DNA of 49,369 bases from contig ONBQ01000149.1 in assembly GCA_900316145.1 (NCBI GenBank), positions 1 through 49,369 on the forward strand, given 5' to 3'. The DNA comes from an uncultured Eubacteriales bacterium (GTDB lineage Bacteria; Bacillota; Clostridia; Lachnospirales; Bianqueaceae). Position 1 is the stretch's first letter. Every line of letters starts with the position of its first letter. The notes under the pieces are model-generated. The model was not told where the DNA came from. It worked only from the letters and a program-made list of their open reading frames with translations, and did no database searches. Shown here one piece after another: positions 18,396 to 28,947 of this stretch. The translations under genes and the position numbers were made by a program.

Positions 18396-18438
18396 AAGCT
18401 GATCCCGGGATCGAAACCCTTGGGGATCAGCTTTTTTT
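18396..18438 (+). terminator. Bidirectional terminator between ung and the GntR gene
   Basis: An 11-bp perfect stem, 18396-18406 with 18423-18433, is followed by T to 18438 on the plus strand and by TGATTTTTTTT on the minus strand. The minus-strand gene ends at the edge of this hairpin. Confidence 0.93.
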
Positions 18439-19123
18439 ATGCCTTTTTCTCTTTATAAATACGCATGATGTTGTTTTGCGTGTTGCGTACATGCTCTGCC
18501 ATCCGGGCTTTTGCCGCTTCCGCATCATGGTTTTTCATGGCTTCCAGAATGAGCCGGTGCTCATGCAGCGACTCGATCGCCCGCCCTTCGGTCTTAAGCG
18601 ATGCGCCGCGCGATCTTCCTACATAATTATGAAGATCCTTCAGGATCCGGCGCAGCATGCGGCTTTGACATATATCATACAATTGCTGATGGAAGCGGCC
18701 ATCCATGGACAAAAGCTTCTCGTAGTTTTCTCTTTCCAGATAAAACTGGGTCAGATCCAGCGTTTCTTCCAGCATATCCAGATCCTCCGGCGCGGCTTCC
18801 AGCGCGGCGCGGGCGGCGGCCATGCTTTCGATCATGATCCGGATCTCATAGATATCACGGATATCTTCGATCGTAATGCCCTTGACAACAGCTCCGCGGT
18901 TCGGACGGATCTCGACCAGTTCTTCCAGCTCCAGCTGTCGAAGTGCCTCTCTGACAGGTGTACGGCTTACTTTCAGTTCTTTCGCGACGCCCAGTTCCGT
19001 GAGCGCTTCCCCATCCTGATACTTGCCCAGCAGGATATTCTGACGAAGCTCTTCGTATACACGATCCGTGAGGTTGGCCCCGCGGTTCTCTTCTTCCCAA
19101 TGCTGTGAACCTTGTTTATTCAC
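18437..19123 (-). CDS. GntR family regulator with FCD effector domain
   Basis: DNA-binding regulator of the FadR/FCD class. I choose the GTG at 19123 (228 residues), with AGAGGA upstream; an earlier TTG at 19192 would lie inside the -10 box of the promoter, so it cannot be transcribed. The winged helix covers about residues 15-80 (LTDRVYEELRQNILLGKY, SRTPVREALRQLE). The all-helical FCD domain follows, with likely metal/ligand residues in MDGRFHQQLYD (Asp, His), LHEHRLIL and MAEHVRNT (His). FCD regulators usually sense small organic acids. Target genes are unknown; the nearest metabolic candidates are the sugar isomerase and the divergent cassette at 19.3 kb. Confidence 0.9.
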   Translation of the reverse strand: MNKQGSQHWEEENRGANLTDRVYEELRQNILLGKYQDGEALTELGVAKELKVSRTPVREALRQLELEELVEIRPNRGAVVKGITIEDIRDIYEIRIMIESMAAARAALEAAPEDLDMLEETLDLTQFYLERENYEKLLSMDGRFHQQLYDICQSRMLRRILKDLHNYVGRSRGASLKTEGRAIESLHEHRLILEAMKNHDAEAAKARMAEHVRNTQNNIMRIYKEKKA

Positions 19124-19180
19124 TTGTTTTCCTCTTTCTTGAAAAGCCTCTTTTTCCCACAGGAGGGCTTTCCGCGCTCT

Positions 19181-19209
19181 ATTGTAGCGCAAGAGTACCC
19201 GGTTGTCAA
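19181..19209 (-). promoter_or_regulatory. SigA-type promoter of the GntR gene
   Basis: Minus strand TTGACA (19209-19204), 17-base spacer, TACAAT (19186-19181). It decides the start codon of the gene, see there. Confidence 0.82.
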
Positions 19210-19333
19210 ACCATTGTAATCATCCCTTCACAATTCATTTACCAAATCCGCGGTTTGTTATTTTTTCGTTCATTCTTTGGACATTTTTGTCCTATATAGT
19301 ATGAGCATCAGACAAAACACGGAGGTGAAACCC

Positions 19334-20083
19334 ATGAACACAGCGGTTTTTCAAAGACACGAGATCAAATATCTGCTCGATCAGGAGCAGCGGGACTTTC
19401 TTTTTCAAGTCATGCAAGGTTACATGGAACCGGATCCTCATGGGGAAAGCACCATCTGCAACATATACTATGATACTCCCGACTACCGTCTGATACGCCG
19501 CTCCCTGGAAAAACCGATATATAAGGAGAAGCTTCGGATCCGCAGTTATGGACCGGCCGCTTCCTCCGACATGATCTTTCTGGAGCTCAAAAAGAAATTC
19601 AAAGGTGTGGTCTACAAACGCCGCATCGAGCTTCCCCAGGAACGGGCCATCGCTTATCTGGATGGAAAAGAACCCCTTTGCGTAGACAGTCAGATCGGCC
19701 GCGAGATCGATTACTTCTGCCGCTATTACGGCGGTCTCAAACCGGCTGTTCACATGTGCTACGACCGCAAGGCATTCTATTCCACCGCGGATCCCGACCT
19801 TCGGATCACCCTGGACCGCAATATCCGATGGGAAGATCAGCATCTTTCCTTATCTTCAAGGCCGGCCGGTACCCAGCTGCTCGATCCCGGACAATCGCTG
19901 CTAGAGATCAAAACGGCGACCGCCCTTCCCCTTTGGCTGACACATGCTTTATGCGAAGCCGACATTCAACACATTTCTTTTTCCAAATACGGAACCGCCT
20001 ATGAGACAGGGCTCTGTTACAAGCCCGCGCAGGCATCCAACTCTTATCATCTTGTAGAAAGCCGAGGTTACTGCTATGTTTGA
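19334..20083 (+). CDS. VTC-domain protein (polyphosphate polymerase-like triphosphate tunnel fold)
   Basis: 249 residues from the ATG at 19334, which has GGAGGTG upstream; a farther start would add residues without similarity. It is a bare VTC domain, without the SPX domain of the yeast Vtc proteins. Charged tunnel-type motifs occur in order: RHEIKYLL, NIYYDTPDY, EKLRIRSYG, IFLELKKKFKG, VYKRRIELP, MCYDRKAFY, LRITLDRNI, LLEIKTA and FSKYG. In yeast the fold polymerises ATP into polyphosphate; the activity of the bacterial stand-alone forms is not established to my knowledge. It overlaps the DUF4956 gene by eight bases, so the two are likely co-translated and functionally linked. Confidence 0.88.
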   Translation: MNTAVFQRHEIKYLLDQEQRDFLFQVMQGYMEPDPHGESTICNIYYDTPDYRLIRRSLEKPIYKEKLRIRSYGPAASSDMIFLELKKKFKGVVYKRRIELPQERAIAYLDGKEPLCVDSQIGREIDYFCRYYGGLKPAVHMCYDRKAFYSTADPDLRITLDRNIRWEDQHLSLSSRPAGTQLLDPGQSLLEIKTATALPLWLTHALCEADIQHISFSKYGTAYETGLCYKPAQASNSYHLVESRGYCYV

Positions 20084-20747
20084 ATCCATCATCACGACTA
20101 CCCTGACACCTGGTGTCTTTGCCCTTTGTCTCTGCGCGGCCCTACTGCTTGGCCTGATCATTTCTGTATCCTACAGGATCCGGTCCTCTTCGACCCGCAG
20201 TTTTACCGTGACCCTCGCCACCCTGCCCGCGATGGTCGCCGTGATCATCATGATGGTGAGCGGTAACTTAGGAGCTGGTGTCGCAGTCGCGGGAACCTTC
20301 TCTCTGGTGCGCTTCCGTTCCGCACCCGGTACCGCCCGCGAGATCGGAGCCATCTTCCTCAGCATGGCGGCAGGTCTTGCCTGCGGCATGGGTTATCTTG
20401 GATTCGCCGTTATCTTTACCGTCGTCCTGTGTGGTGTCGATCTTCTATATAACTCCATCGGTTTCGGGGAGAAAAAAGGCGGCCGCGCGGAGCGGGAGCT
20501 ACGCATCCTGGTCCCGGAAGATCTGGAATACTATGGAATGTTCGATGATCTGTTCCAGAAGTATACTACGCAGGCTGATCTGGTCCAGGTCAAGACGACC
20601 AACCTGGGAAGCCTCAACCGTCTTTCTTACGATGTCCGTCTGAAAGAGGCGGGACAGGAAAAGGCTTTCATCGATGAGCTGCGCTGCCGCAACGGCAACC
20701 TGGAGATCAGCCTGTCCATGAAAGCGATGAATGAAGAGGCTCTGTAA
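20076..20747 (+). CDS. DUF4956 family membrane protein
   Basis: 223 residues. About four membrane segments occupy residues 13-130; between them is the family signature GNLGAGVAVAGTFSLVRFRSAPGTAREIGAI (cited in part: residues about 64-94). The soluble C-terminal part (about 140-223) begins ELRILVPEDLEYYG and ends LEISLSMKAMNE, and reads like an ACT/ferredoxin-like beta-alpha unit, as at the end of MgtC-type proteins; that fold is my inference. Function unknown. Next to VTC genes it could be the membrane partner through which a product is delivered or sensed, which is speculation. Confidence 0.85.
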   Translation: MFESIITTTLTPGVFALCLCAALLLGLIISVSYRIRSSSTRSFTVTLATLPAMVAVIIMMVSGNLGAGVAVAGTFSLVRFRSAPGTAREIGAIFLSMAAGLACGMGYLGFAVIFTVVLCGVDLLYNSIGFGEKKGGRAERELRILVPEDLEYYGMFDDLFQKYTTQADLVQVKTTNLGSLNRLSYDVRLKEAGQEKAFIDELRCRNGNLEISLSMKAMNEEAL

Positions 20748-20791
20748 GAGCCCTTTCCTGATAAAAAACACACTCAGAAAGGAGAACCGAT

Positions 20792-22594
20792 ATGAAACAG
20801 TATTCCCTCATCATTGCGATGCTGCTGTTGATCAGCACCATCTGCTCTGCCTGCACCTCTGGGGCGTCTATCATAGAAAACAGTTTTTCCGATCTTTCCG
20901 AAAGCACCACTGCGGATGGATCTGGTAATGATTCCGTAGAAATTTCCACCACCGAGGCTTCGGAAACCGAAACAGATTCCGTTGTATCCTCCACTTCCAC
21001 TACTGAGTCTTCTTCGGATCTGTTTACCGACAGAGACCTGGACAGTTCTTATGAAAACGCGATCCAGATCACCCTTTCCGACGGAGCCTCCGCCGGTGAC
21101 CAGGTCACGATCGAAGGAGATATCATCACCATTTCCCAGGAAGGCACGTATCTTCTGAGCGGCAGTCTCTCTGACGGACAGATCGTGATCGACGCGGACG
21201 ATACCGCGAAGATCCAGCTGGTCCTTAACAACGTGACCATCACCAACTCGGGCAGTGCCGCGATCTACGTGGCCAGCGCCGATAAGGTCTTCATCACATC
21301 CGCAGCCGGCTCTGTCAATACGCTCTCCTCTGTCGGAACTTTCGAAAGCGACGGCGAGGTTGCGATCGATGGGACCATCTTCGCCCAGGATGACCTGACC
21401 TTCAACGGAGAAGGCACCCTGATCGTTGTTTCCGAAGAAGGCCATGGCATCGTTGCCAAGGATGATCTGAAGATCACGAACGGTACGTATGAGATCACGG
21501 CCGCAAAAAAGGGTCTGGATGCCAATGACAGTGTCCGAATCGCAAATGGCAGCATCACCATTACCGCCGGAACCGACGCGATCCACGTCGAGAATACTGA
21601 AGACACTTCCAAGGGTTACTTCTATATGGAAAACGGCACTTTGAATCTTACGGCACAAGCCGGTGACGGTATCGACGCCACCGGACAGATCCAGATCGAA
21701 GACGGCGAGATCAACATTTTAGCCGGCGGCGGCTACACCAACGGAGAAGCCAAGTCCGACTGGTTCGGTCCCGGACAGTCCACCACTTCTTCTGACGACA
21801 GCACTTCCACCAAAGGCCTGAAATCCGATGTCCTGATCCAGATCGATGGCGGGACCCTTGCCATCAACGCGGCGGATGACAGCCTGCACAGCAACGGCGA
21901 TGTTCTGATCAATAACGGCAACCTGACCTTAGCCAGCGGAGATGACGGGATCCACGCTGATTATACCCTCACGGTAACCGAGGGCACGATCGAGATCCTG
22001 ACCAGCCATGAAGGCTTCGAAGGTTATACGATCGATATCCAAGCCGGTTCCATCTGCCTGGTCTCCAACGATGACGGTTTCAACGCAGCCGGCAGCGGCA
22101 CACCCACCCTCTCCATCTCCGGCGGCATGATCTACGTTAACTCAGCCGGTGACGGTCTGGATTCCAACGGACAGCTGCTCGTTTCCGGCGGCACCATCAC
22201 CATAGACGGCCCGACGGACAATGGCAATGGTTCTCTGGACTATGACACCGAAGCGACCATTACCGGCGGCACCATCATCGCGTTGGGCTCTTCCGGAATG
22301 GCTGAGAACTTTGGTTCCGGTTCGACCCAGGGGACCATCCTCTACAGCTGCAATCAGCAGGCAGCCGGCACCGTCGTCACTCTTACCGACGCGAACGGCA
22401 ATGAGATCATCAATTATACTTCTGCCAAAGCCTTCTCTTCTGTCCTGATCAGTGATCCTGGTATCGAAGCCGGACAGACCTATACCTTGACCATCGGCTC
22501 CTCCTCCGTCACCATCGAAATGACCGGCACCGTGTACGGACAGGGCTCCGGCATGGGCATGGGCGGCATGGGCGGCATGGGCGGCCGCCGCTGA
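20792..22594 (+). CDS. Lipoprotein with Cthe_2159-type carbohydrate-binding beta-helix
   Basis: 600 residues, third gene of the VTC cassette (44 bases after DUF4956, with AGAAAGGAG upstream). The N-terminus MKQYSLIIAMLLLISTICSAC is a lipoprotein-like signal with an imperfect lipobox (Cys at -3 where Leu is usual). A Ser/Thr/Glu linker follows to about residue 85, then a repetitive parallel-beta region with recurring units such as DGEINI, SGGTITID, GDDGIHADYTL and DGLDSNGQ, typical of Cthe_2159 proteins. The founding member from Clostridium thermocellum binds acidic plant polysaccharides. The C-terminus ends in a Gly/Met-rich tail (GMGMGGMGGMGG). Likely displayed at the cell surface; ligand unknown. 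Adhesion or wall attachment are equally possible. Confidence 0.85.
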   Translation: MKQYSLIIAMLLLISTICSACTSGASIIENSFSDLSESTTADGSGNDSVEISTTEASETETDSVVSSTSTTESSSDLFTDRDLDSSYENAIQITLSDGASAGDQVTIEGDIITISQEGTYLLSGSLSDGQIVIDADDTAKIQLVLNNVTITNSGSAAIYVASADKVFITSAAGSVNTLSSVGTFESDGEVAIDGTIFAQDDLTFNGEGTLIVVSEEGHGIVAKDDLKITNGTYEITAAKKGLDANDSVRIANGSITITAGTDAIHVENTEDTSKGYFYMENGTLNLTAQAGDGIDATGQIQIEDGEINILAGGGYTNGEAKSDWFGPGQSTTSSDDSTSTKGLKSDVLIQIDGGTLAINAADDSLHSNGDVLINNGNLTLASGDDGIHADYTLTVTEGTIEILTSHEGFEGYTIDIQAGSICLVSNDDGFNAAGSGTPTLSISGGMIYVNSAGDGLDSNGQLLVSGGTITIDGPTDNGNGSLDYDTEATITGGTIIALGSSGMAENFGSGSTQGTILYSCNQQAAGTVVTLTDANGNEIINYTSAKAFSSVLISDPGIEAGQTYTLTIGSSSVTIEMTGTVYGQGSGMGMGGMGGMGGRR

Positions 22595-22616: not shown

Positions 22617-22648
22617 AAGGACTCTCTTAGAAACCATAGAGAGTCCTT
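22617..22648. terminator. Bidirectional terminator between the lipoprotein and DUF1667 genes
   Basis: An 11-bp perfect stem, 22617-22627 with 22638-22648, has ATTTATATT beyond it on the plus strand and GTTTTTTATT beyond it on the minus strand. It serves the two convergent operons. Confidence 0.9.
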
Positions 22649-22673: not shown

Positions 22674-23033
22674 TCAGCCGATATTGCGGGTCGCTACAAG
22701 ATTCGCTTCGGTTCCCGCAACGCCCGGGATCAGAACATCTCCGACCTTGACGGGCACTTGTGCCTTAACGCCCTGAGCAGCCTTCAGGACTTCGCCGATC
22801 TTTTCCTTCGGGATCGCTTCGCTGGTCTTGACAGACAGCATTTTGTCGCGGCCGGGGTTCTCTACATAGACAGAAGTCGTAACGGTGCGCATCGGATGCG
22901 TTAATTCATTGATCCCGTACTGCTTGCCTCGCGGGCAGGTATTTCCGGTTACCTGAATATCATCCCCATCCTGCGTGACTGTTAAATGGCAGCCGCGCGG
23001 GCACAGGATGCAGATCATTTCTTCTACTCGCAT
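22674..23033 (-). CDS. DUF1667 protein with cysteine motifs, GlpABC-like module
   Basis: 119 residues. The N-terminus has CILCPRGCHL and then NTCPRGKQYG, Cys-rich motifs that could hold an iron-sulfur cluster or zinc; the remainder is a small conserved domain ending VAGTEANLVATRNIG. Such proteins regularly accompany the two flavoproteins found upstream and seem to take the place of the electron-transfer subunit GlpC. Three bases separate it from the middle gene of the operon. The redox role is inferred from context; no experiment is known to me. Confidence 0.85.
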   Translation of the reverse strand: MRVEEMICILCPRGCHLTVTQDGDDIQVTGNTCPRGKQYGINELTHPMRTVTTSVYVENPGRDKMLSVKTSEAIPKEKIGEVLKAAQGVKAQVPVKVGDVLIPGVAGTEANLVATRNIG

Positions 23034-25804: not shown

Positions 25805-26614
25805 TTAAAAATGATGGCCTCCGCCGCCATGCGTCACTCCGCCGGAGGAAATATGAGTGGATGAGCCGCCCCCTCCGCCTCCGCCGCCGGTCCGTTCCTC
25901 ATGGATGATCCGGTGCATGGTGGTGTTTTCTCTCTCCAGGATATCATCGAACTGCATGATATTGAAGTTCGCCTCATCCTGATAGGTCTGGAAGGTGACC
26001 GTATTCTTATACGGTTCCGACCTGCGGATGAACATCGCGGAAATGGCTGCGACGATAGCGGACAGGACCAGATAGATCGGCGAACGCTTCAAAGAGGCCA
26101 TGAACCGATCTTTGAGTGTTGGTCTGGCGTAGGGATCCTTCAGCAGGAAGGCCCTCGTCTTCTCCAGGAAAATATCGGCTGCTCTATAATAAGCCTCATT
26201 TGCCATCGGCTTGTCCATCGTATTCAGGACCTCTTCGATGCGGGCATCCGTCATGTAATAGATCGCCTCTCCGCAAGTGGAAATGTAGATCATACGGTTG
26301 TCCATATCGATCAAGAGGATCGCGCCGGTCGCCTCTTCTCCGAAGCCAAAGCCGCCTTCGTCATAGAAATCATCCGCGTATGCTTCCGAGGACTTTCCTT
26401 GCGCATCGTCAACGGTGAGGATCACAAGATCCGCCCCGGTCTCTTGCGCATACGAGTGGCACTTCTCCTCCAGGTCCTGTTTCTGACTGTCGGAAAACAG
26501 ATCTGCTTCATCATACACTCTTTGATCTTCGGCCCTGGCTTCTGTTGTGTGAAACAGCATGAACGCAACGGCCAGAAGAAGAAAGAATACAATACCTGAT
26601 CTTCGGGCTCTCAT
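25805..26614 (-). CDS. TPM-domain membrane protein with Gly/His-rich tail
   Basis: 269 residues from the ATG at 26614, which overlaps the upstream stop as ATGA; a farther start would overlap that gene by 67 bases. A signal peptide (about residues 1-30, ending TEARA) precedes a TPM domain (about 32-150: RVYDEADLFSDSQKQDLEE, ADLVILTVDD, GAILLIDMDNRMIYIS), a membrane segment near 190-210, and a low-complexity C-terminus of eight Gly then Ser/His-rich sequence ending GGGGHHF. TPM proteins (YgcG, Psb32) are placed in membranes and their biochemistry is poorly known. It is coupled to a zinc-ribbon membrane protein, a pairing that suggests one complex. Confidence 0.85.
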   Translation of the reverse strand: MRARRSGIVFFLLLAVAFMLFHTTEARAEDQRVYDEADLFSDSQKQDLEEKCHSYAQETGADLVILTVDDAQGKSSEAYADDFYDEGGFGFGEEATGAILLIDMDNRMIYISTCGEAIYYMTDARIEEVLNTMDKPMANEAYYRAADIFLEKTRAFLLKDPYARPTLKDRFMASLKRSPIYLVLSAIVAAISAMFIRRSEPYKNTVTFQTYQDEANFNIMQFDDILERENTTMHRIIHEERTGGGGGGGGSSTHISSGGVTHGGGGHHF

Positions 26615-27666
26615 AACAGCAGCCCTCCCAGCAGGAACAAGGAACCGAAGGTGATAGCTCCGTACAACGCGGACCATAACGCGACCTTCTTATTGCTCTT
26701 CGGCGGATGGCCGACGACCTTGCCTGTCTGACCGTTCATGGCGAACATATACCGCTGCCCTTTGTAGCGATAGGTCAGCATCCAGACGGGCAGCAGCGAA
26801 TAGCAGGCATCGACCTTCTGGAAATTGGTCTGTCCCTGGAAATTCAGGTTGGAGTAACCGGAGATCGTCGTACGCAGTTTCTGCTGCGTATACTGCCGCA
26901 CTCTTTGCTCGATGCGTGGATAGACGACCTTGTGTGACTCATCGTATTTTTCCGCCATATAGCCGGACAGATACGGCATGTCAAAGCGGATCAGCTGGTC
27001 ATAATCAAAAGGTTCCAGCGCGTCCATCATTTCATTGTCCATAGCGGACGCGCCATCCGCCGGCACGCGGAAATAGCGCATTCTGGCCCGGCGCAGGATC
27101 TTGTAATACTGTGTATTGACGTATTGATAATCTCCATGGATCCAGGTCCTGACCTTGGTGCCGGTGCCGGTCCCGATCCCTTCCACATAACAGTCGAACA
27201 GCCAGAACGGGACATACATGCCCGTGATCTTATCCAGCTGTTGTTCCGAAGCGAAATCTTTAGGAGTATACCGACCGTTGTGACACCATTTCAGGAAAGC
27301 GCTTTTCGCTTCCTCTTTGCTGATCTTGAACGGGATCATGGATACCGGGCGGTAATCCCCGGTCAGATTGGTCTCGACCAAGGTCGGCGAACCGCAGAAT
27401 CGGCAGAATGTAGCGGAAACATTCTCTTCCGCCACGATGTCCGCGCCGCATTCCGGGCAATGCCAGGCTTTCAGATGGGCATTGAATTCCTCGGACTGTT
27501 CCGGCGTTTCCTCCCGGATGTCTTCCGGTTCGACGTTCACCTCACCGACAAGGGCTTCCTGGGGCGTGAACATAGAGCCGCAATAGCTGCAGGTCATCTG
27601 CTGCACTTCGGCATCAAATTCCAAAGCCGCTCCGCACTTTGGGCATTTATAGACCATCACGGCCAT
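26611..27666 (-). CDS. Double zinc-ribbon membrane protein, TFIIB-like
   Basis: 351 residues. Two zinc ribbons lie at the N-terminus: CPKC and CSYC (residues about 8-28), and CPEC and CRFC (about 74-97), separated by an acidic linker. The middle (100-310) is an uncharacterised domain rich in aromatic residues, including YRPVSMIPFKISKEEAK, VPFWLFDCYVEG and LLPVWMLTYRYKGQRYMFAMNGQTGKVVG. A single C-terminal hydrophobic segment (about 330-350) anchors it with the ribbons in the cytoplasm. Function unknown. Six bases from the amidase-like gene and overlapping the TPM gene; the latter coupling is the strongest functional hint. Confidence 0.85.
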   Translation of the reverse strand: MAVMVYKCPKCGAALEFDAEVQQMTCSYCGSMFTPQEALVGEVNVEPEDIREETPEQSEEFNAHLKAWHCPECGADIVAEENVSATFCRFCGSPTLVETNLTGDYRPVSMIPFKISKEEAKSAFLKWCHNGRYTPKDFASEQQLDKITGMYVPFWLFDCYVEGIGTGTGTKVRTWIHGDYQYVNTQYYKILRRARMRYFRVPADGASAMDNEMMDALEPFDYDQLIRFDMPYLSGYMAEKYDESHKVVYPRIEQRVRQYTQQKLRTTISGYSNLNFQGQTNFQKVDACYSLLPVWMLTYRYKGQRYMFAMNGQTGKVVGHPPKSNKKVALWSALYGAITFGSLFLLGGLLL

Positions 27667-27672
27667 CGTTCA

Positions 27673-28947
27673 TCACTCCCATCCATTGTCCTGGGCTTCA
27701 GGATCTTCCGTCCAGGATTCTTCTGTCCACGACTCCTCTGTCCAGGATTCTTCCGTCCAGGACTCCTCTGTCCAAGACTCCTCCGTCCAGGATTCCTCCG
27801 TCCAGGATTCCTCGCTGGCACTTTCTTCCCATGTGCTTTCGGTACTTTCTTCCGAAGATTCTTCTACCGTCTTGACTTCAGGGATGTTAACATCTACATG
27901 CGGCTCATAGGAGGTGACGATCGATACGATGCTCTCGGCAAGCCGATCGATCATATCGGCCTTTTTCGCGTCATCCACCAAAGCCGCGCGGTCATAATCA
28001 TTGGTAAGGTATCCCATCCGAAGGGAAACGGACGGCATATTGGTCTGATACAGGATCTCGGAAAGCTCCCACTGAGCCCCATTGTCCGGACGGTCCAGGG
28101 CGGTAGCGGCCGCGTTGACGAGCTGGATCGCTACACGCAAGGACTCCTGGCCCCTGGGGGTGTTTTCTTCCGAATCCCAGAACATGCAGGCCACGCCTCC
28201 CTGCGTCAGATCCTCCTCATTGGCCGAAAGGTTTAAGTTTACATACAGATCAGCCTCGCGGTCATTGGCCAGGGCTATCCGATCGGAGATCTCGACATAG
28301 GTATCATCTTCCCTTGTCAGCAAGACCTCGATCTGCGGCGCCAGCTCCCGGATCCGGTCACGCAGACGCGTCGCGATCAACAGATCAAATTCGCTTTCAT
28401 TGATACCCGAGACCGTAAGCCCCGTATCCTCACCGCCATGCGCCGGATCAAGCACGATATGATACAGATACTGTACCTTTTCCGGCGCGCGGGAATCCTC
28501 CGGCGATTTCGCGTGATTATCCGCATGAGACAGGACCATGCCGGTCAAAAAGCCCATGACCTGCTCGTCCAGCTTTTTCAACCCGGTATGATACCCGGAA
28601 TCCAGGGTGACGGTCGGTTCGATCTGTGCTTGTTCCGGTTCGGACGACTCTGTCGCCGTTCCCGTATCTTCTGAAACAGCCTCGGACTCTTGTACAGATG
28701 ATTCCTGCGGTGCTTCGGATGAAGCGCTCTCGCTGGATGTTGCGGCCGCTTCCGATGCCCCTTTCTGCTGTCCGCTTTCTCCTTTTTTGATAAGCTGGGA
28801 AGCCAGCAGAACGATGATCAACGTGAATACCAGAAGACTGCCGTAGAACCGGACCGGGTTCGCGATCTTCCATCTGGCCTTTTTCTTTCTTCTATGGGAT
28901 CTGTGCGTGTTTCGATTCCGATGATCGGGATATCGATTATACGCCAT
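27673..28947 (-). CDS. Amidase_3-like protein, probably catalytically inactive
   Basis: 424 residues. An Arg/Lys-rich cytoplasmic N-terminus (1-35), one membrane segment (about 35-52), a Ser/Glu-rich linker (60-105), an Amidase_3 domain (about 160-345) and a C-terminal EESWT repeat tail. The family uses His, Glu and His as zinc ligands plus a catalytic Glu. Here His170 (LDPAHGGEDTG) and Glu184 remain, but the second His position is Asn239 (ADLYVNLNLSAN in place of the usual SIHAN) and the catalytic Glu position is Arg310 (VSLRMGYLTN). The protein therefore likely binds peptidoglycan or a partner without cleaving. It sits within the long hfq-to-TPM chain. Confidence 0.82.
   Translation of the reverse strand: MAYNRYPDHRNRNTHRSHRRKKKARWKIANPVRFYGSLLVFTLIIVLLASQLIKKGESGQQKGASEAAATSSESASSEAPQESSVQESEAVSEDTGTATESSEPEQAQIEPTVTLDSGYHTGLKKLDEQVMGFLTGMVLSHADNHAKSPEDSRAPEKVQYLYHIVLDPAHGGEDTGLTVSGINESEFDLLIATRLRDRIRELAPQIEVLLTREDDTYVEISDRIALANDREADLYVNLNLSANEEDLTQGGVACMFWDSEENTPRGQESLRVAIQLVNAAATALDRPDNGAQWELSEILYQTNMPSVSLRMGYLTNDYDRAALVDDAKKADMIDRLAESIVSIVTSYEPHVDVNIPEVKTVEESSEESTESTWEESASEESWTEESWTEESWTEESWTEESWTEESWTEESWTEDPEAQDNGWE
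27704..27812. repeat. 15-base tandem repeat encoding EESWT
   Basis: About seven copies of a 15-base unit (plus strand form close to TCCAGGATTCTTCTG) encode repeated Glu-Glu-Ser-Trp-Thr at the C-terminus of the Amidase_3-like protein. Copies differ at third positions, so the protein unit is better conserved than the DNA. Copy number may vary between strains. Confidence 0.92.

Follow-up and report, generated by a model that had tools for sequence, protein, structure and literature searches.

Introduction

A 2023 review treats VTC in eukaryotes only and, for bacteria, gives PPK1 as the main enzyme (PMC10657179). In streptococci and clostridia, cotH, a polyphosphate polymerase gene and a DUF4956 gene, in some cases with DUF4832, form an accessory set of the Pel operon (PMC7112168, PMC12345266). 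It was reported for S. intermedius that strains deleted for DUF4956 or CotH aggregate less and have altered Pel levels, Pel being raised in the DUF4956 deletion, and that deletion of the VTC gene gives no aggregation or Pel phenotype; the same authors did not find the three-gene CotH set outside Pel loci (PMC12345266). The NELoc-2 locus of C. perfringens is given as VTC, 'tubulin', VTC, 'tubulin', CotH and chitin synthase (PMC2879425).

The locus analyzed here joins VTC and DUF4956 genes to a Cthe_2159 gene. It lies in a window of 49,369 nucleotides, the whole stretch of DNA that was analyzed. An earlier, sequence-only reading of this DNA had named the cassette its strongest candidate for an undescribed system. 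No report of the Cthe_2159 version was found in the literature searched (most subscription journals were out of reach), but the VTC-DUF4956-CotH arrangement is known (PMC7112168, PMC12345266, PMC2879425). The same search, with the same reach, found no assay of a bacterial VTC protein. We find that VTC and DUF4956 are obligately paired, that their secreted third partner is swappable and that a two-component system is a frequent neighbor. VTC has a polymerase-type tunnel, and DUF4956 has a remote MgtC/SapB ancestry.

The cassette in the window

The features of the locus are as follows.

18437–19192, minus strand: divergent GntR/FCD regulator gene (Pfam), upstream of the cassette
19193–19333, no strand: divergent intergenic region with genus-conserved blocks and a GGACA-N4-TGTCC palindrome at 19279
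19334, plus strand: ATG start of the VTC gene, with GGAGGTG upstream at 19321–19327
19334–20083, plus strand: gene of the VTC-domain protein, 249 aa, tunnel fold, without SPX and without a membrane domain
20076–20747, plus strand: gene of the DUF4956 membrane protein, 223 aa, overlapping the VTC gene by 8 bases; remote MgtC/SapB homolog
20792–22594, plus strand: gene of the Cthe_2159 beta-helix protein, 600 aa, lipoprotein-type signal, Gly/Met-rich C-terminus
22617–22648, plus strand: terminator-like hairpin between convergent genes, 11-bp stem and 10-base loop, then UAUUUAUAUU

The VTC and DUF4956 genes share the bases ATGTTTGA, and 44 bases separate DUF4956 from Cthe_2159. The window sequence confirmed the open reading frames and both of these junctions as given in the sequence-only reading. 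The single terminator of that reading corresponds to the strong hairpin at 22617–22648 (−16.8 kcal/mol, z −5.15) with its A/T-rich tail, which the convergent gene at 22674 may share. The Pfam matches of VTC (1e-38), DUF4956 (9e-15) and Cthe_2159 (1e-91) all exceed the curated cut-offs, and NCBIfam gave zero matches for the three proteins.

The cassette forms a three-gene island on the plus strand, and the surrounding housekeeping genes lie mostly on the minus strand. No polysaccharide or glycan synthase gene and no pel-like gene was recognized among the window genes, part of which were scanned against Pfam. An obligate tie to Pel or other polysaccharide synthesis is supported neither in the window nor in most of the loci seen. 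Elsewhere in the window, positions 25805–28947 encode a TPM-domain protein with a GGGGG...HH tail, a zinc-ribbon membrane protein and an Amidase_3 protein with a long TEESWTEES repeat.

Of the three other genomes of the genus, two retain the GntR/FCD gene next to the cassette along with blocks of the intergenic sequence. The region 19193–19333 is the probable promoter region of both the cassette and the regulator gene. Its palindrome at 19279 is the sole copy in the window and is inexact in the congeners, and a TTGTAA...TTACAA-like dyad is common to the window and two congeners. This conserved region is a candidate operator for the GntR/FCD protein, which is a possible regulator of the cassette. 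Across the collected loci, a response regulator or histidine kinase gene was found no more than 5 kb from VTC in 41 of 61.

The VTC protein

The AF2 model of the window VTC protein (pLDDT 90) has yeast Vtc4, a tunnel enzyme, as its closest fold. When the model was compared with the PDB by Foldseek, the best 13 matches were eukaryotic VTC subunits (3g3r_B, 5.5e-14), and the CYTH hydrolases and cyclases ranked below them (5.5e-8 and weaker). A profile search of PDB sequences returned VTC subunits only. Pfam scores the VTC domain at 133 bits, where the cut-off is 23, and finds this domain alone in the 249 residues, with SPX and a cis membrane domain absent. The protein is thus the tunnel-fold enzyme without SPX that had been proposed.

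The tunnel residues, which the sequence-only reading had left to a structural alignment, are present by alignment to Vtc4, by conservation in 109 sequences and by the fold match. The counterparts of Vtc4 K200, R264, R266, K281, K294, R361, R373, E426, K428 and K458 are invariant in these 109 VTC sequences, which cover both clades. R68, R70, K86, R145, E191 and K218 of the window protein correspond to R264, R266, K281, R361, E426 and K458; the Vtc4 numbering is that of printed alignments, and MAFFT and visual inspection served to match the C-terminal motifs. Yeast VTC was inactivated by mutating R264, R266 and E426 (PMC9911596). Three of the four positions of the acidic patch of TTM hydrolases (PMC4641920) are basic as in Vtc4 (R8, K95 or R97, and K193), and E10 is acidic. 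The position of Vtc4 K455 is Ser in the window and Ser, Ala or Thr in most sequences, and that of T198 is Glu in the window protein. By its residues and modeled fold, the VTC protein looks like a phosphate polymerase.

The same fold and residues would suit a conventional enzyme for storing polyphosphate inside the cell, held by a membrane anchor, with the lipoprotein gene as a passenger. PPK1 is present in the window's genome, however, and the PPK1-VTC association across genomes is positive. VTC as a replacement for PPK1 is therefore rejected, and VTC is not simply the storage-polyphosphate enzyme of the cell. The gene neighborhoods bear further on this explanation.

The DUF4956 protein

The DUF4956 model (pLDDT 80, pTM 0.59) has five membrane segments, one of them short (residues 12–34, 41–60, 64–77, 87–104 and 108–128), followed at about 139–215 by an ACT-like C-terminal domain of beta-alpha-beta-beta-alpha-beta order. 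The protein had been described as a four-helix membrane protein with a soluble C-terminal domain; the model keeps the domain and raises the helix count to five. Foldseek against the PDB gave weak ACT-like matches to the C-domain and zero matches to the membrane part, with no solved channel matched.

In hhalign, DUF4956 sets including CotH-type loci matched MgtC/SapB at 97.2–97.8% probability over 206–210 columns, and Cthe-type DUF4956 alone at 87.6% over 110 columns; the histidine-kinase control gave 0.3%. The window DUF4956 had no match to Pfam MgtC at 0.01, and the proteins of CotH-type loci had sub-threshold matches (6e-6 to 2e-4). Judged by profiles and model, DUF4956 is a remote MgtC/SapB homolog with an ACT-like C-domain, in agreement with an independent account that describes SIR_1592 as MgtC plus ACT (PMC12345266). 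Its VRFR motif is near-invariant; by charge it would lie on the cytoplasmic side, where it is a candidate phosphate-facing site. The 'tubulin' of NELoc-2 is most probably DUF4956. A tubulin-like nature of DUF4956, the old annotation (PMC2879425), is supported by neither profile nor model.

The MgtC/SapB relationship and the ACT-like domain also favor the main rival explanation, a signaling or regulatory module in which the MgtC-like DUF4956 would modulate a membrane enzyme or sensor kinase. VTC would then make or consume a small phosphate compound read by the ACT-like domain, no polymer would be exported, and the surface protein would be the output. The two-component system beside many loci is consistent with such a module, as is the finding in S. 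intermedius that DUF4956 deletion raises Pel and VTC deletion is silent (PMC12345266). Yet the polymerase-specific basic residues stay invariant, and the strict one-to-one pairing argues that VTC is indispensable. We regard the signaling explanation as possible but doubtful.

Co-occurrence and gene neighborhoods

The sequence-only reading had staked the cassette on co-occurrence of its three families beyond chance, and this is what we find, both in genome counts and in synteny. Among 150 genomes spread evenly over the window's phylum, VTC and DUF4956 occupy an identical set of 20, with 25 copies of each family (Fisher p 2e-24, the window's own genome excluded). Both are present in the same three of 14 named control genomes (Bacteroides, Corynebacterium and Methanosarcina). 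VTC is associated with Cthe_2159 (p 6e-7) and more tightly with CotH (p 2e-17), and no VTC genome lacks both. In an informal control of our own counting, ordinary MgtC genes overlap with VTC at about chance in 41 relatives (10 of 15 versus 27 of 41). The clean one-to-one pairing of VTC and DUF4956 makes complex prediction and assay straightforward.

The 80 loci collected for neighborhood analysis were selected by similarity to the window's VTC protein and are phylogenetically uneven; they therefore describe the Cthe clade rather than the whole family. DUF4956 follows VTC in 77 of the 78 loci with room, mostly with the same 8-base overlap, and Cthe_2159 follows in 57 of 70. The three-gene unit is conserved in many gut and soil bacteria, and Paenibacillus cellulosilyticus (L164) is a non-pathogenic carrier. 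No VTC-DUF4956-Cthe_2159 gene fusions were found. The one roomy locus without DUF4956 (L088:8986-10644) has VTC and then a short Cthe_2159 gene.

The gene order differs in L087 (Spirochaetaceae) and L154, where Cthe_2159 comes first. That the association is kept across families despite the varying order argues against simple passenger linkage, and so does the separate recruitment of Cthe_2159 beside CotH-clade VTC, described below. Together with the PPK1 of the same genome, these points make a storage enzyme with a passenger gene most unlikely.

Several CotH loci in our collection lie beside two-component systems without obvious Pel genes, part of their neighbors having been run through Pfam; this does not fit the reported restriction of the CotH set to Pel loci (PMC12345266). 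The window's genome also has a separate CotH gene (L036, G000:C110:13688-14782) without adjoining VTC or DUF4956 up to the contig end. A CLC-type chloride channel gene is seen downstream of Cthe_2159 in some rumen loci (L042:12098-13381).

A mobile element as carrier was rejected: plasmid and phage hits are few, and the phage record, an unverified contig from feces, carries ordinary bacterial genes. An Enterococcus faecalis plasmid record (L163, LR962858.1) has the order VTC-DUF4956-RR-HK-CotH. The phage record, 'Bacteriophage sp.' (L165, MT835527.1), carries the VTC-DUF4956 pair among ordinary-looking bacterial genes and is probably a mis-sorted bacterial contig.

The third gene

The Cthe_2159 protein of the window matches PF14262 with 307 bits, and its beta-helix domain matches 4peu at 3.9e-34. 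Its signal is of the lipoprotein type, although the lipobox, CSAC, is atypical at the -3 residue; the lipobox is canonical in most relatives. This agrees with the beta-helix surface lipoprotein seen in the letters alone.

In the VTC tree one clade largely has Cthe_2159 as its third gene and the other CotH; as an exception, a CotH protein (L148) sits at the base of the Cthe clade. Cthe_2159 was also recruited separately beside CotH-clade VTC. L144:2458-7920, from a genome of the window's genus, has the order RR-HK-VTC-DUF4956-Cthe_2159 with a VTC-DUF4956 pair of the CotH clade. Its third protein has no CotH domain and comprises a CotH-type anchor, a Cthe_2159 domain and a repetitive mucin-like tail; its N-terminal anchor is similar to the anchor of CotH proteins (46% over 35 residues), and, like several of these, it terminates in a membrane helix with a basic tail. 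Judged from a single fragmented draft genome and a brief alignment, it looks like a hybrid whose display scaffold was kept while one surface domain took the place of the other. The third gene is a surface module that can be swapped, and the way the parts swap suggests one machine at the cell surface.

The third gene, where present, always encodes an outward-facing protein, and in the other clade this belongs to the CotH kinase family. Both facts would suit phosphate transfer, in which VTC and DUF4956 would phosphorylate a surface protein or glycan, modifying or anchoring the lipoprotein or a matrix polymer. The links in the literature to Pel (PMC7112168) and to a chitin-synthase-like gene (PMC2879425) also speak for it. 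However, VTC has no export signal, so that a trans-membrane donor would be required, and no glycan synthase was recognized near the window's cassette among the genes scanned with Pfam. Phosphate transfer is, in our judgment, very unlikely.

Proposed mechanism

Synteny, fold and partner swapping lend good support to the arrangement of an inside enzyme, a membrane protein and an outside protein, first proposed from the sequence alone. We tentatively favor a polyphosphate synthase that is coupled to the membrane and works with a surface partner, the whole being one co-evolved module under envelope regulation. Its residues and fold suggest that VTC would use ATP to build a phosphate polymer on the inner side of the membrane. 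DUF4956 would be its membrane partner, replacing the cis membrane domain of eukaryotic VTC, and may anchor, gate or sense the reaction via the ACT-like domain; that it threads the chain outward is conjecture and the least certain step. The outward-facing third protein, Cthe_2159 here and CotH kinase elsewhere, would act on the product or matrix at the surface. A two-component system or the GntR regulator would control the cassette.

From residues and models, polyphosphate synthesis by the cassette is plausible. Counted against the favored reading are the Ser at K455, the Glu at T198, the presence of PPK1 and the absence of a channel-like match for DUF4956. The null phenotype of VTC deletion in S. 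intermedius (PMC12345266) also argues against a simple contribution of VTC to matrix formation.

A bolder form of the synthase reading, which we consider unlikely, is a bacterial counterpart of the VTC complex whose MgtC-like conduit threads polyphosphate outward to interchangeable surface proteins. The polyphosphate would be bound, perhaps via Ca2+, by Cthe_2159, or spent as phosphoryl donor by an extracytoplasmic CotH kinase. If true, no extracellular ATP would be needed to phosphorylate the surface or to form a matrix polymer.

A widespread bacterial VTC unit with an obligate membrane partner would be a second polyphosphate route, maybe an outward-facing one. It would explain the CotH kinases and Cthe_2159 proteins adjoining VTC-DUF4956 and would give DUF4956, an uncharacterized family, a testable role.

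Comparison with known systems

The cassette shares with the eukaryotic VTC complex the tunnel fold, nearly all polymerase residues and the coupling of a cytoplasmic enzyme to a membrane protein. It differs in lacking SPX and a cis membrane domain, in the replacement of Vtc4 K455 and in the added surface partner; its membrane partner is an unrelated MgtC-like protein acting in trans. DUF4956 aligns end to end with the MgtC/SapB family at the profile level (97–98% probability), through both the helix core and the ACT-like C-domain. Unlike that family, it has the VRFR motif and an obligate VTC partner, and it sits below the Pfam MgtC cut-off.

With the Pel accessory set the cassette has in common the VTC-DUF4956 pair and a secreted third protein. 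The third gene of the window is, however, Cthe_2159 and not CotH, no Pel genes were recognized nearby, and a regulator or two-component system stands beside the cassette instead. NELoc-2 likewise pairs VTC with a membrane protein of matching size, but has CotH and a glycosyltransferase, with no Cthe_2159 in the part of its report consulted. The window's Cthe_2159 protein shares its beta-helix domain with the carbohydrate-binding Cthe_2159 protein (4peu/4phb; about 4e-34); unlike the latter, it is of the lipoprotein type and is encoded in a unit with VTC and DUF4956.
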